Assembly (NCBI GenBank): GCA_009920715.1
Contig: RFZO01000002.1
Location: 1 to 38,578, forward strand
Length of the DNA stretch: 38,578 bases
Source: Actinomycetota bacterium
GTDB taxonomy: Bacteria > Actinomycetota > Acidimicrobiia > Acidimicrobiales > Ilumatobacteraceae
Direction: 5' to 3'
A program made the translations under genes and the position numbers. Numbering within the stretch: the first letter of the stretch is position 1; each line of letters begins with the position of its first letter. The notes beneath the pieces were generated by a model that saw nothing but the letters and a program-made list of their open reading frames with translations, had not been told where the DNA came from and ran no database searches. This document shows, one piece after another, positions 30,399 through 36,996 of the stretch.

Positions 30399-31610
30399 TC
30401 ACTCGCACACGACGCGGTCGCGGGCGGCGAGGTCGGCGTACACCCTGCGCAGGCGGGCGGCGGCGAAGGCCCACGTGTACCCGCGGGCGCGCTCCGCCGC
30501 GGCGTGCGACATGCGCGCGGCAAGGTCAGCATCTGTGATGAGACGGCCGATGTGAGAGGCGAACACGTCGGGTTGCCGGTCGGGCACGAGGAACCCGGTG
30601 CGGCCGTCCTCCACGATGGTGAGGAGACCACCCACGGCGTTCGCCACGACGGGAGTGCCGCACGCGGCGGCCTCCAGCGCGACGAGCCCGAAGCTCTCGC
30701 TGCGGCTGGGCACCAGCACCACGTCGGCCGCGCGGTAGTAGGTGGACAGGATGTGGTGCGGCTGCGGCTCCACGAACCGGACCTGACCCGCGACACCGAG
30801 ACTGTCGATGAGCCCGCGGACCCTCGCCATCTCGGCGTCTCCCTCGGTGCCCGATGCCCCGCCGACGATGAGGAGGATTGCGTCGCTGCGACCGAGCCCG
30901 GCGAGGGCCTGCACGGCCACATCGACGCCCTTCAGGGGCTGGATGCGCCCGACGAAGAGAAGGACAGGTCCGCCTGCGAGGCCGAGGGCGTGGCGCGCAC
31001 CGCGTTTGTCGCCGGGGGCGAAGAACGCGTGCTCCACACCGGGCGAGACGATCTCGATGTTGCCGGGCGGGTTGCCGTACAGCTCGACGAACTGTCGTTC
31101 CTCCTCCGTGCACGAGACACAGATGGCGTCGCTGCAGCCGATGATCTCGGTCTCGGCCTTCTCGCGCTGCGCGCTCTCCGGGTCCCCGCCGAGGGCCTTC
31201 ACCCGGGCGAACGTGTGGAACGTGTTGACGAGGGGCACGTCGATCTCGTGCTTGATCGCGTGGCCGCTGACCCCGGACAGCCAGTAGTTGGCGTGGACCA
31301 CGTCGGTGCCGCCGCTGCGCTGGATGTGGTCGATGACGCGGTCGGTGAACTCCGGGATGACGGACGGCAGGTCGGACTTCGGCAGGTCGACATCGCCGGC
31401 CCGGACGTGGACGATGCGGTGGTTCGGCTCCACCAGCACCTCGGCGGGCAGGTCGTCGCGCCAGGCCCTGGTGTAGGTGGTGCAGTCGACGCCGGCATGG
31501 GCCATGGCGGAGACGAGTTCGCGCACGTACACGTTCATTCCGCCGCCGTCGCCGACGCCCGGCTGGGCGAGCGGCGAGGTGTGAAGGGAGAGAACCGCTA
31601 CTCGTTGCAC
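30399..31610 (-). CDS. mshA: D-inositol-3-phosphate glycosyltransferase (mycothiol biosynthesis)
   Basis: VAVLSLHTSPLAQPGVGDGGGMNVYVRELVSAMAHAGVDCTTYTRAWRDD; GT4 family motifs. Confidence 0.93.
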   Translation of the reverse strand: MQRVAVLSLHTSPLAQPGVGDGGGMNVYVRELVSAMAHAGVDCTTYTRAWRDDLPAEVLVEPNHRIVHVRAGDVDLPKSDLPSVIPEFTDRVIDHIQRSGGTDVVHANYWLSGVSGHAIKHEIDVPLVNTFHTFARVKALGGDPESAQREKAETEIIGCSDAICVSCTEEERQFVELYGNPPGNIEIVSPGVEHAFFAPGDKRGARHALGLAGGPVLLFVGRIQPLKGVDVAVQALAGLGRSDAILLIVGGASGTEGDAEMARVRGLIDSLGVAGQVRFVEPQPHHILSTYYRAADVVLVPSRSESFGLVALEAAACGTPVVANAVGGLLTIVEDGRTGFLVPDRQPDVFASHIGRLITDADLAARMSHAAAERARGYTWAFAAARLRRVYADLAARDRVVCE

Positions 31611-31622
31611 GCGGTGGTCAAC

Positions 31623-32021
31623 CTATCCAGCGGAGGGCGGATTCCCGTCCGCGGGACCCGTTCCCGCCTGGTCGTTCGAGGCCACGAAGGACCTGTACAC
31701 CGAGAGGAGACTCTGCCGTTGCTCCGCGGTGAGCCTTTCGTCGTTCATGATCGCCTCCGGGACGGAGCTCGCGGCCGGTGGCGTGCCGTCGAGGATGCCG
31801 GCACGCACGTACAGGCTCTCGGCCGATATCTCGAGGGCGCGCGCGATCTGCTGGAGGATCTCCGCCGACGGTCTCCTGATGCCGCGCTCGATCTGGCTGA
31901 GGTACGGGTTCGACACGCCGGCCGCGCGTGCGAGGTCACGGATGCTCTGCTGGGCGTTCTCGCGCTGCTGGCGGATGAACTCACCCACGTCATGGAGACG
32001 GTCGGCGGGATTGCGCGGCAC
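31623..32021 (-). CDS. XRE-family HTH regulator
   Basis: FIRQQRENAQQSIRDLARAAGVSNPYLSQIERGIRRPSAEILQQIARAL. Confidence 0.9.
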   Translation of the reverse strand: MPRNPADRLHDVGEFIRQQRENAQQSIRDLARAAGVSNPYLSQIERGIRRPSAEILQQIARALEISAESLYVRAGILDGTPPAASSVPEAIMNDERLTAEQRQSLLSVYRSFVASNDQAGTGPADGNPPSAG

Positions 32022-32534
32022 TTACTTGTCCTTCTCCCCCGGCCCCGCACCCGACCCGTCAACGACAGCCCCGGCACCTCCGGCCTCGCGCACCCGCCTC
32101 ACGACCTCAGCGGTGAGTGCGTCGATGCGCTCGAACATCTCGTGGCGCTGGCGGCTGCATTCGCGCTCGAACATCCCGAGCGCGTCGGAGAGAGCAGCAA
32201 GATCGCGGTCGTCCAGCGTGTCCATGCTGCCGAAGCCGTGTGAATCACACAGTTCGTCCAGCTGCAGCAGCAACGGATGGTCGGTCGGCACCTCCGTCTC
32301 GCGCGGCGGCCGGGCGCTGCCACCTCCGTGCTGCTGGCCGAACACTTCCGCCAGGCGCTCGGCAAGCGGCACCGACGCTGATTCCGCACCGCCCGCTCGG
32401 CGGCGCTCCTCGTCGGAGACGAGGTCGAGACGGCCCTGGGCGAGGCGCCGCACGAACGACACGATGTCCTCCTCGCGCTGCAGGGCGGAACGCTCGGCGC
32501 GGAGATCCGCGAGAGTCTGGTTCGTCCCTGGCAT
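32022..32534 (-). CDS. rsiG: RsiG-like c-di-GMP-binding anti-sigma protein
   Basis: EDIVSFVRRLAQGRLD exactly matches E(X)3S(X)2R(X)3Q(X)3D; second near-match ERECSRQRHEMFERID. Confidence 0.75.
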   Translation of the reverse strand: MPGTNQTLADLRAERSALQREEDIVSFVRRLAQGRLDLVSDEERRRAGGAESASVPLAERLAEVFGQQHGGGSARPPRETEVPTDHPLLLQLDELCDSHGFGSMDTLDDRDLAALSDALGMFERECSRQRHEMFERIDALTAEVVRRVREAGGAGAVVDGSGAGPGEKDK

Positions 32535-32774
32535 CTACGTCCCTCCACTTACCGGCGGCAGAACCGCCACCTCATCATTGTCGGACACGGGATGGTCACG
32601 GGGGACTTCCTCACCGTTCACCCACACCTTGCTGGTGGCCAGAACCGCGGCAAAACCGTCGCCGAATCTGTCCACGGCCGCGTCGAGCACGTCGGCGACG
32701 GTGCTGCCGCCGACCTCGGCCGAGTTCGTGCCGGCAGCCTCGCGGGCCGCGGCGAAGAGTCGGAGGACGGCCAC
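32535..32774 (-). CDS. MoaD/ThiS-family sulfur-carrier-like protein
   Basis: VAVLRLFAAAREAAGTNSAEVGGSTVADVLDAA...VWVNGEEVPRDHPVSDNDEVAVLPPVSGGT*. Confidence 0.85.
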   Translation of the reverse strand: MAVLRLFAAAREAAGTNSAEVGGSTVADVLDAAVDRFGDGFAAVLATSKVWVNGEEVPRDHPVSDNDEVAVLPPVSGGT

Positions 32775-32794
32775 GGGCGAAGCGTACCTGCGGG

Positions 32795-33823
32795 TCACTC
32801 GACGGTGATCCCCGCCGGTCCCTCGTCGAACCTGCCGATCACCGTGAATCCCTCGTCCACCAGTCGTGCGACCGCGGAGCGGTCCGCCGCCGCGAGCAGG
32901 CCGCCGGATGTCTGGGGGTCCATGCACAGTGCGAGCGCTGCGTCGTCGGCGTGCACCTCTATGTTGCCGCGCACGTACTCACGGTTGCGCGGGTCGCCTC
33001 CGGTTCGGGTGCCCCCGGCCGCGATCCGGCGCGCACCGTCGTAGACGGGCAGCAGGACCGTGTCGACCGTGAGTCTCACACCGGACCGGTCCGCCATCTC
33101 CCAGCCGTGGCCCGCCAGCCCGTACCCGGTCACGTCAGTGACCGCATGCACCGCGTCACCTGCGGCCCGCAGGGCGGAGGCGGCCGCCCTGTTGATGCGG
33201 CGCATCCCCTCGACCGCCTTCTTCTTCTCTCCCTCCGTGCCGGCCGCAGTGACGAGTCCGGTGCCGAGGGGCTTCGAGATGAGGGCCACGTCACCCGGAC
33301 GGGCTCCCGCCTTGCGGAACACCCGACGGGGGTCCACCACGCCCTGCACCGCGAGGCCGAAGACGGGCTCGGGATTGCGGATGGTGTGGCCACCCGCCAC
33401 GCTCCCGCCGGCCTCCTCCACCACCTGCGCGGCGGCGGCGAGGATGGCCGTGACCGCATCCCCAGGGAGATCCTCCGGGAACGCGGCGATGTTCACCGCG
33501 AGCACCACGTCACCGCCCATCGCGAACACGTCGCTGCAGGCGTTCGCCGCCGCGACCGCGCCGAAGTCGGCGGGATCGTCGACGAGCGGCGGGAAGAAGT
33601 CCACGGTGCTCACGAGCGCGAGGTCGTCGGTCAACCTGTACACCGCCGCATCGTCGAACGGCGCAAGACCGACGAGGAGTGACGGGTCGATCCCCGCTGG
33701 CAGGTTGCCCACCAGGTCGGACAGGAGAGTCGCACCCCACTTGGCGGCGCACCCGCCGCACGAGGTCCACTCGGTCAGACGGATGGCCGCGACGGAGTCC
33801 TGATGCGTCCTCTCGCCGCCCAT
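32795..33823 (-). CDS. selD: selenide, water dikinase (Cys form)
   Basis: RLTEWTSCGGCAAKWG active-site region; DDAAVYRLTDDLALVSTVDFFPPLVDDP; ANACSDVFAMGG; VTDVTGYGLAGH. Confidence 0.95.
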   Translation of the reverse strand: MGGERTHQDSVAAIRLTEWTSCGGCAAKWGATLLSDLVGNLPAGIDPSLLVGLAPFDDAAVYRLTDDLALVSTVDFFPPLVDDPADFGAVAAANACSDVFAMGGDVVLAVNIAAFPEDLPGDAVTAILAAAAQVVEEAGGSVAGGHTIRNPEPVFGLAVQGVVDPRRVFRKAGARPGDVALISKPLGTGLVTAAGTEGEKKKAVEGMRRINRAAASALRAAGDAVHAVTDVTGYGLAGHGWEMADRSGVRLTVDTVLLPVYDGARRIAAGGTRTGGDPRNREYVRGNIEVHADDAALALCMDPQTSGGLLAAADRSAVARLVDEGFTVIGRFDEGPAGITVE

Positions 33824-33829
33824 GCGCGC

Positions 33830-33842
33830 ACGGTACTAGGTT
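33830..33842. promoter_or_regulatory. back-to-back TANNNT -10-like elements for selD (-) and selA (+)
   Basis: ACGGTA (minus strand TACCGT, last T 7 nt from selD ATG) and TAGGTT (last T 8 nt from selA GTG), separated by 1 nt. Confidence 0.5.
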
Positions 33843-33849
33843 CCACCGC

Positions 33850-35154
33850 GTGACGAGTCAGCGAGATGACACCGCGAGACCGCCGTCCGTCGACGCACTC
33901 GCACGTGGTCTCGCCCGGCGGCATTCGCTCCCCCACGCTGTGCTCGTGGACTGCGCGCGGCGTGCCGTCGCCGACGGTGCCGCTGACGTGGAAGAACAGG
34001 CCGACCGGCATGCCGCTGCGTTCGCGGCCTCACTCGTGGGCGACGTCATAAACGCCACCGGCGTGCTGCTCCACACCAACCTCGGGCGAGCGCCGGTGCC
34101 GATGGTGTCGTCGGGCCGGCCGACCAATCTCGAGTTCGACACCGTCACGGGCACGCGCGGGAGCCGTCACGCGGCGGTCTCGTCCCTGCTCTCTGTGCTC
34201 ACGGGCGCCGAGGCGGCCGTGGTGGTCAACAACAACGCGGCGGCGGTGATGTTGGTGCTGGCGGCGCTCGCGCACGGCAGGGACGTGGCTGTGTCGCGGG
34301 GCGAGAGCGTGGAGATCGGGGGCGGGTTCCGCATCCCGGACGTGATGGAGCAGTCGGGTGCGCGCCTCGTCGACGTCGGCACCACGAACCGCACGGGCGC
34401 CGCCGACTATGCGAAGGCGATCGCGTCGCCGCGCAACGACATCGCACTCGTGATGAGGGTGCACCCGTCGAACTTCTCGGTCGAGGGGTTCGTGTCCTCC
34501 GCACCGCTCCGCGAGCTCGCGGGGCTCGGTGTCCCCGTGGTCGCGGACATCGGGTCGGGCCTTCTCGACAGCACGTGCCCCTGGCTCCACGGTCGCACCG
34601 ACGGAGTCCCCGCGTTCCTCCGCAACGAACCGGCGGTCCGCCAGTCGCTGGAGGACGGTGCCGCGATCGTCACGTTCAGCGGCGACAAGCTGCTCGGCGG
34701 CCCGCAGTGCGGGATCATCGCCGGCCGGGCCGACCTCGTGGCCACATGCGCGTCGCACCCGTTGATGCGTGCGCTGCGCCCGGGGGGACACACCCTCCAG
34801 TTGCTCCAGGCCGCGCTGCTGTCGTTCGCCGCACGCACGGCCTGCGACGACATCGCGTTCTGGCGGATGCTCGCACTCGATGCCGGCGTGGTCCGTGACC
34901 GTGCGGAAGCTGTCGTCTCGGCGGCTGGTGCCGGCTCCGTCGTGCCCGTGTCCGCCCTGGTCGGGGCGGGTTCGGCCCCGGGCGCGGTGTTGCCGTCATT
35001 CGCTGTTGCGGTGGACGGCGATGTGTCGGCGCGTCTCCGTGCGTGCGCCCTGCCCGTGGTCGCACGCGTCGACAGGGGTGTCACGCTCCTCGATCTGCGC
35101 ACGGTCGACCCCGCGGACGATGCCGCAGTGGTCGCCGCGCTCGCCTCCCTCTGA
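33850..35154 (+). CDS. selA: L-seryl-tRNA(Sec) selenium transferase
   Basis: INATGVLLHTNLGRAPV...VVNNNAAAVMLVLAAL...GFRIPDVMEQSGARLVDVGTTNRT...VTFSGDKLLGGPQCGII; GTG start. Confidence 0.96.
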   Translation: MTSQRDDTARPPSVDALARGLARRHSLPHAVLVDCARRAVADGAADVEEQADRHAAAFAASLVGDVINATGVLLHTNLGRAPVPMVSSGRPTNLEFDTVTGTRGSRHAAVSSLLSVLTGAEAAVVVNNNAAAVMLVLAALAHGRDVAVSRGESVEIGGGFRIPDVMEQSGARLVDVGTTNRTGAADYAKAIASPRNDIALVMRVHPSNFSVEGFVSSAPLRELAGLGVPVVADIGSGLLDSTCPWLHGRTDGVPAFLRNEPAVRQSLEDGAAIVTFSGDKLLGGPQCGIIAGRADLVATCASHPLMRALRPGGHTLQLLQAALLSFAARTACDDIAFWRMLALDAGVVRDRAEAVVSAAGAGSVVPVSALVGAGSAPGAVLPSFAVAVDGDVSARLRACALPVVARVDRGVTLLDLRTVDPADDAAVVAALASL

Positions 35155-35159
35155 CCGAC

Positions 35160-36857
35160 ATGCCCGTCATCGCCACGGCCGGCCACGTCGACCACGGGAA
35201 GTCGTCACTCGTCCGCGCGATGACCGGAACCGACCCGGACCGCCACGAGGAGGAACGCCGAAGGGGGATGTCGATCGACCTCGGCTTCGCGCACGTGTCC
35301 GCCCCCGACGGCACGGTGCTGAGCTTCGTCGACGTGCCCGGCCACGTCGATTTCGTCCGCACGATGATCTCGGGCGTCAACGCGGTGTCCTGCGTGCTCT
35401 TCGTCGTGGACGCCGCCGAGGGGTGGATGCCGCAGTCCGCGGAGCACATGGGAATCGTCACGGGTCTCGGGATCCACCACGGCGTGCTCGCCGTGACGAA
35501 GTGCGACAAGGTCGACGACGACGCGGTGAGGGCGTGCATCGACGACGTCGTGCGCCGCACACCGCGGATGAGATGGTCGGCGAGGATCGCGACGTCGGCG
35601 GTGACGGGCCGCGGTGTCGACGAGCTCGTCTCCGCCCTCGCCGCGGCGGCGCGCGGTGCGTCGCACGCACCCGACCCGCTCGGGCGCGTGCGCCTCTTCG
35701 TCGACAGGTCCTTCTCGGTGCGGGGCGCCGGCACGGTGGTCACAGGCACGCTCGAGGGTGCCCCGCTCGCGGCTGGGGCCGTGCTCACGCTCGTCAGGGA
35801 CGGAAGGGACGTGCGCGTGCGCAGGGTGCAGTCGCTCGGGGAGGAGGTGACTGCCGTGTCACCGGGTTCGCGTTGCGCGGTGAACATCCCCGACATCGAT
35901 GCGGACACCGTCGAGCGCGGTGACGTGCTCGTGGAGGACGGCCGCTGGCACGTCACGGACGTGTTCGATGCGTCGGTCGAGCTGCTGAAGGGCACCGCCG
36001 CGCGCGTGACGACGCGCGGTGGCTACGTGCTCCACTTCGGTTCCTCCCACCAGGCGGCGCACCTGCGCCTCGCTGTGCCCGGCCCGCTGGCGGCGGGGCA
36101 GACCGCACACGCACGGATCCGTTTCCGGTCACCGTTGCCCCTCACCCCGGGTGACCGCTTCGTGGTGCGCGACACCGCCTCGGGCACCACGGTCCTCGGC
36201 GGCACCGTCCTCGACGTGGACCCCCGCGGCAGCGTCGCGTCGGCCGCCAACGGTGCGTCAACAGTGGAACGTCTCGCGCGACGGGGATGGATCCCCCTCG
36301 ACGAAGCGAGGCGACTCACCGGCGTTCCGCTCGGGGCGACGGTGCCCGGCTGGTGGGCGGGAGAGCACGCGTTCGACGGCACGGTCCGCAGGCTGCGGAT
36401 GCTGCTGGACGGCGGGCCCGTCGACCTCGCGACGTTGACGGAGGTGGAGCGGGCGGTCGTCGCGACGCTGCCCGGCGTGACTGTCGAGCGCGGCACGGCG
36501 CACACGGCGGCGCGCGACCCGCTGCTCGACCATCCGTACGCGGTTCGGTTCCGCAGCGCACCGCTCGACGGCGGTTCCACGGCGGGCCTCAACAGGGACG
36601 TCATCCGCAGGCTCGTGCAGGCCGGCATCATCCTCGAGCACGACGCGATCGCGTTCCACGCGGACACGCTCGACGCGCTCGTGCCCGCACTCGAGAAACT
36701 GTGGGCGGCGCACCCGGACGGTTTCCTCATCCGCGACCTCGCCGGCGTGCTCGGGATCTCGCGGAAGTGGGCGGTGCCGCTCGCCGAGTGTCTCGACAGG
36801 AAGGGTCTCACGCGCCGCTCGGGCGACGTGCGCCTGCCGGGGCGCGCGTTGCGCTGA
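35160..36857 (+). CDS. selB: selenocysteine-specific elongation factor
   Basis: MPVIATAGHVDHGKSSLVRAMTGTDPDRHEEERRRGMSIDLGFA; C-terminal winged-helix-like region DLAGVLGISRKWAVPLAECLDRKGLTRRSGD. Confidence 0.96.
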   Translation: MPVIATAGHVDHGKSSLVRAMTGTDPDRHEEERRRGMSIDLGFAHVSAPDGTVLSFVDVPGHVDFVRTMISGVNAVSCVLFVVDAAEGWMPQSAEHMGIVTGLGIHHGVLAVTKCDKVDDDAVRACIDDVVRRTPRMRWSARIATSAVTGRGVDELVSALAAAARGASHAPDPLGRVRLFVDRSFSVRGAGTVVTGTLEGAPLAAGAVLTLVRDGRDVRVRRVQSLGEEVTAVSPGSRCAVNIPDIDADTVERGDVLVEDGRWHVTDVFDASVELLKGTAARVTTRGGYVLHFGSSHQAAHLRLAVPGPLAAGQTAHARIRFRSPLPLTPGDRFVVRDTASGTTVLGGTVLDVDPRGSVASAANGASTVERLARRGWIPLDEARRLTGVPLGATVPGWWAGEHAFDGTVRRLRMLLDGGPVDLATLTEVERAVVATLPGVTVERGTAHTAARDPLLDHPYAVRFRSAPLDGGSTAGLNRDVIRRLVQAGIILEHDAIAFHADTLDALVPALEKLWAAHPDGFLIRDLAGVLGISRKWAVPLAECLDRKGLTRRSGDVRLPGRALR

Positions 36858-36866
36858 TCCTTGTGT

Positions 36867-36885
36867 CCTCACCCTCAGGGAGAGG
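36867..36885. terminator. candidate bidirectional hairpin between selB and selC
   Basis: CCTCaCCCTcAGGGaGAGG imperfect inverted repeat between convergent genes. Confidence 0.3.
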
Positions 36886-36900
36886 ATCCCCTGCGGGGTG

Positions 36901-36996
36901 TGGCGGAGGCGGACGGGAATCGAACCCGCCGGACGGGGATCGCCCGTCCCGTCTGTTTTGAAGACAGCGAAGCCCACCAGGTGCTCGTACGCCTCC
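36901..36996 (-). tRNA. selC: tRNA-Sec (anticodon TCA), encoded 3' GCCA
   Basis: Minus strand GGAGGCGTACGAGCACCTGGTGGGCTTCGCTGTCTTCAAAACAGACGGGACGGGCGATCCCCGTCCGGCGGGTTCGATTCCCGTCCGCCTCCGCCA: acceptor pairing, CTTCAAA anticodon loop, 7-bp long variable arm GGACGGG/CCCGTCC, TTCGATT T-loop, 96 nt. Confidence 0.94.

Follow-up and report, generated by a model that had tools for sequence, protein, structure and literature searches.

The locus considered here raises two questions: does c-di-GMP control a sigma factor in this actinobacterial lineage, and what should we make of a c-di-GMP signature in which one of the five defining residues is replaced? The gene lies on a 38,578-nucleotide stretch of DNA from an Ilumatobacteraceae bacterium ("the window").

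A twin-motif RsiG

The gene, which we call rsiG (positions 32022-32534, minus strand), starts with ATG and encodes a protein of 170 amino acids; the first-pass annotation named no strand, and the plus-strand translation of the same positions has internal stops. The first-pass annotation, which was made from the sequence alone, described two copies of the RsiG signature E(X)3S(X)2R(X)3Q(X)3D, and both are as described. Motif 1 (residues 22-37, EDIVSFVRRLAQGRLD; 32424-32471, minus strand) matches exactly. Motif 2 (residues 123-138, ERECSRQRHEMFERID; 32121-32168, minus strand) meets four of the five signature positions, with a phenylalanine (F134) in place of the glutamine. If the protein is permuted, so that its composition is kept, then at least one exact motif (with Q or H allowed) appears in 148 of 200,000 shuffles. 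Homology is a stronger test than shuffling, and it leaves no doubt that the motifs are real. Pfam's RsiG family (PF22802) matches the 170-residue protein in two stretches, with 64.9 bits (the cut-off is 27) and E = 5e-18. The nearest sequences in the PDB are the RsiG proteins of Streptomyces venezuelae and Rubrobacter radiotolerans; the closest is 6pfj from S. venezuelae (E = 3e-9), and the alignment spans both of the helices described below. An NCBIfam search of the protein did not give a match to any RsiG model. The C-terminal tail RY(R/K)xGEAxVDxLL, which is kept in most relatives, is degraded in this protein.

An AlphaFold2 model, built from 21 sequences, has a mean pLDDT of 86 and two long helices (residues 8-48 and 109-152), with values of at least 93 over most of both. 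Motif 1 is inside the first predicted helix and motif 2 is inside the second. When we compared the model to the PDB with Foldseek (E ≤ 0.001), we found four chains, all of them RsiG from 6pfv or 6pfj, with TM scores of 0.57-0.62. The two motif helices are thus predicted to form an antiparallel two-helix coiled coil, with the antiparallel arrangement taken from the model's match to 6pfv. The first-pass annotation had suggested structure prediction as a check, and the fold that we obtained agrees with the RsiG hairpin. Of its refuting conditions, none that could be checked here came out against it. Together with the sigma factor WhiG in the same genome (see below), the Pfam, PDB and AlphaFold2 results support its identification of the protein as RsiG.

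By its sequence, then, the product is an ordinary-looking twin-motif RsiG of a known family, whose members keep WhiG inactive by means of c-di-GMP, in a non-sporulating freshwater bacterium. The first-pass annotation had also stressed that the protein occurs outside of the classical developmental actinomycetes. It does, but this is not new: twin-motif RsiG was listed for 3 of 4 Acidimicrobiales in 2021 (PMC8325347). Since twin-motif RsiG in this order was already published in outline, the parts worth following are the pattern at motif 2 and the regulon.

We scanned seven members of the family against named genomes and obtained 80 loci, mostly from freshwater MAGs that are labelled Ilumatobacteraceae, Acidimicrobiaceae or "acIV." The nearest of these RsiG sequences is 86% identical, and the host is a close relative of freshwater Ilumatobacteraceae, in the order Acidimicrobiales. 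Eight records titled Bifidobacterium breve also contain an Ilumatobacteraceae-like RsiG, and their titles look wrong; because the same gene order flanks rsiG, we took the records titled Bifidobacterium breve or Acidobacteria to be mislabelled MAGs.

That gene order is thiS-rsiG-HTH-mshA-ybjN-proC, and most of the 80 named loci keep it up to the point where their contigs end. All three of the neighbours that we describe here are on the minus strand. Directly upstream of rsiG is a gene for a ThiS/MoaD-like protein (32535-32777; Pfam ThiS), whose stop codon abuts the start of rsiG. Directly downstream is a gene for an XRE-type regulator (31623-32021; Pfam HTH_3), whose GTG start abuts the TAA stop of rsiG; an HTH gene is found downstream of rsiG at 57 of 110 loci from the order, for which the flanks were short. 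Because both ends of rsiG abut its neighbours, they suggest a single transcript. The third conserved neighbour is an mshA-like glycosyltransferase (30399-31610), which scores 388 bits against NCBIfam's mycothiol_MshA, below the cut-off of 462.5. Selenocysteine machinery also adjoins rsiG in the window (32795-36996): we identified selD (minus strand), selA and selB (both plus strand) by reading the translations, and there is a tRNA-Sec, which ARAGORN called as tRNA-Phe(aaa) but which matches Rfam RF01852 with 65.7 bits.

The partner sigma factor

As the first-pass annotation had proposed, we searched the genome for a WhiG/FliA-like sigma factor. There is one above the cut-off of NCBIfam's FliA_WhiG model (260.8 bits vs. 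189.6), and its best match in the PDB is WhiG of S. venezuelae (E = 7e-70). The gene sits between comM, dprA and xerC-like genes on one side and rpsB, tsf and pyrH on the other (rpsB and tsf were named from reading the translations). In Streptomyces, whiG has the same surroundings. In S. venezuelae WhiG, K57, G61 and R62 contact c-di-GMP (PMC8325347); their counterparts here are K38, G42 and R43. Across 57 WhiG proteins from the order, the lysine and the arginine are invariant and the glycine is G (50 proteins) or S (7 proteins). The trio is rare in lower-scoring FliA-like sigma factors from genomes that lack RsiG (2 of 27, and these are the two best-scoring).

RsiG and WhiG also tend to occur together. 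RsiG is present in 177 of the 299 genomes from the order, and of these, 160 have WhiG as well and 17 do not; another 8 genomes have WhiG only and 114 have neither, so that 25 genomes are discordant (P = 4e-53, Fisher exact test, which treats related species as independent). WhiG was called at E ≤ 1e-72, a threshold that we picked after viewing the values, and the picture is the same at 1e-65 and at 1e-56. In our sample of the phylum, 248 of 398 genomes have RsiG. As of 2021, RsiG-WhiG was the sole pair of sigma and anti-sigma factors known to be a target of c-di-GMP (PMC8325347), and its distribution across Actinobacteria is much wider than the survey of that year showed. Many genomes in the phylum sample have a single-motif RsiG, which exceeds the 2021 count of five.

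The best overall explanation, to which we assign a probability of roughly 88%, is that this protein is a monomeric twin-motif RsiG that acts, when loaded with c-di-GMP, as a clamp on WhiG. It draws on the sequence, homology, the predicted fold, a partner sigma factor with conserved contact residues, and co-occurrence; the near-invariant E, S, R and D of motif 2 and the presence of two GGDEF proteins (both below) also speak for it. The degraded C-terminal tail, the SGDEF sequences of the GGDEF domains and the fruitless search for a WhiG regulon (below) weigh against it. Helices 8-48 and 109-152 of a single chain would pair as an antiparallel coiled coil, with one E-S-R-[Q/F]-D half-site on each, and the two half-sites would jointly hold a c-di-GMP dimer. 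At high c-di-GMP, the loaded RsiG would clamp sigma2 and sigma4 of the genome's single WhiG, which is encoded elsewhere, and block its use by RNA polymerase; as c-di-GMP falls, WhiG would be freed. F134 would most likely stack on guanine instead of the glutamine, with the contacts by E, S, R and D kept. Ligand binding, sigma inhibition and stacking by phenylalanine are the parts that we infer from the known structures of the complexes in Streptomyces and Rubrobacter.

The coiled coil might instead have kept the RsiG fold and drifted to another partner or ligand, as the 17 RsiG-positive genomes without a strong WhiG might hint. But several of those 17 are incomplete assemblies, and this genome does encode WhiG, with contact residues kept on both sides; given the strong co-occurrence as well, we think that drift is very improbable.

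Phenylalanine in the second half-site

The first-pass annotation described the second half-site as asymmetric. The asymmetry is real, but it is not peculiar to this protein: it is a substitution shared by the lineage. Position 134 is phenylalanine in all 11 proteins that we examined from the window's own family, and in each of the 81 rows of the named-genome set (about 80 near relatives). The search patterns for the named genomes used motif 1, so conservation of motif 1 is biased in that set, while motif 2 is unbiased. Among 111 sequences from the order, position 134 is H (76), F (34) or Q (1); the stacking site of motif 1 in the same sequences is Q (104), H (6) or G (1). In 36 twin-motif sequences from outside the order, the motif-2 site is Q (17), L (7), H (5), I (3), F (2), M (1) or a gap (1), and the motif-1 site is Q (26) or H (10). 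The single-motif proteins that we examined have Q or H at the stacking site. When L, I and M are counted as one state, parsimony over a FastTree phylogeny requires no fewer than 22 changes at the motif-2 site and no fewer than 11 at the motif-1 site. Since phenylalanine does not vary among the near relatives (about 80), and since Q is almost never found at this site in the order, where H or F takes its place, these sequences indicate that F134 is a trait fixed across the whole bacterial family, not decay.

Does a half-site with phenylalanine still work? F134 might be no substitute for glutamine, so that the second half-site lacks the stacking contact; the c-di-GMP dimer would then be bound weakly or at one end, and RsiG would be an anti-sigma factor that is partly independent of c-di-GMP. 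Phenylalanine cannot make the polar contacts of glutamine, and L, I and M, which are poor stackers, occupy the same site elsewhere in the phylum. On the other hand, stacking may matter, rather than glutamine as such: the 2021 authors judged histidine to be suitable for the same guanine stacking (PMC8325347). Furthermore, the other four signature residues of motif 2 (E, S, R and D) hardly vary among 147 twin-motif sequences (mostly better-scoring Pfam matches, with weak members under-sampled), which, with phenylalanine as the sole residue in the near relatives, indicates selection on a working half-site. We consider the loss of the stacking contact to be unlikely. A scan for covariation between position 134 of RsiG and the columns of WhiG gave no clear partner; the best P was 7e-5 among 394 tests, and it is confounded by ancestry.

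Among the papers that we searched, none deals with variation in motif 2. Because the 2021 study reports Q-to-H exceptions for motif 1 only, and describes motif 2 as conserved (PMC8325347), the variation in motif 2 seems to be new to the literature. We tentatively suggest, as a possibility that is somewhat doubtful, that the second half-site was freed from symmetry after the internal duplication from which twin-motif RsiG arose: its E, S, R and D did not change, but its stacking residue shifted time and again from Q to H, F, L, I or M, and lineages may tune their affinity for c-di-GMP via this one position. The F form would have become fixed in freshwater Ilumatobacteraceae, in a switch that governs an undescribed regulon that is neither flagellar nor for sporulation. 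The substitutions also provide a naturally occurring set of variants (Q, H, F, L, I, M) with which to measure each half-site's share of the affinity for c-di-GMP.

The regulon, and comparison to known systems

WhiG belongs to the FliA family, so RsiG might be an anti-sigma factor that controls flagella through WhiG, as FliA does elsewhere. The assembly (400 contigs, 89.7% complete, 2.8% contamination) does contain a flagellin match, on a 6-kb contig (1-6001) with FlgI, a rod-binding protein, FlgK and a FlgL-like gene; it is the only flagellar contig. We rejected it as the host's own: because it is just 6 kb and carries the P-ring gene FlgI, which is part of diderm flagella, it is probably contamination by a diderm. 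Also, of the 11 other genomes from the family that we searched, 10 have RsiG without a flagellin match, and the other genome from this genus is one of the 10. Flagellar control by RsiG is therefore hard to credit.

Searches with the flagellar promoter consensus, with up to one or up to two mismatches, gave no credible WhiG regulon in this genome and nine relatives. In this genome, canonical promoters with at most one mismatch are found at two sites only, both in short AT-rich stretches at contig ends, and there are 24 sites with two mismatches vs. 10 in the control; most relatives have no such excess. We do not claim type IVa pili for this genome, as its two matches to secretion-type ATPases resemble CpaF/TadA-type genes (neighbours were read by eye). 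As for c-di-GMP itself, the genome encodes two GGDEF proteins: one has an EAL domain as well (Pfam), and in the other an EAL-like reading follows in a different frame, which could be a frameshift. Both GGDEF domains have SGDEF instead of GGDEF, and they may thus not be active as cyclases. RsiG-WhiG also occurs in small freshwater cells for which no sporulation cycle is known, and which genes it controls there is a testable question.

Of the known systems, S. venezuelae RsiG (AmfC; 6pfj and 6pfv) is a two-helix hairpin, as predicted here, with one motif per helix and a long linker, and its WhiG has the same contact residues. Unlike the S. venezuelae protein, this one has F for Q in motif 2, its host is planktonic and does not sporulate, and its gene is within a thiS-rsiG-HTH-mshA cluster. 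The Acidimicrobiales proteins of Schumacher et al. 2021 (PMC8325347) are from the same order, by name, and share the twin-motif form (3 of 4 species), but that study described motif 2 as conserved, whereas wider sampling gives H or F in this order. RsiG of Rubrobacter radiotolerans (7lq2-7lq4) has the same motif, presumably the same arrangement of the ligand, and a unicellular host; it has a single motif per chain, forms a homodimer and controls type IV pili, while a single chain of our protein carries both motifs.
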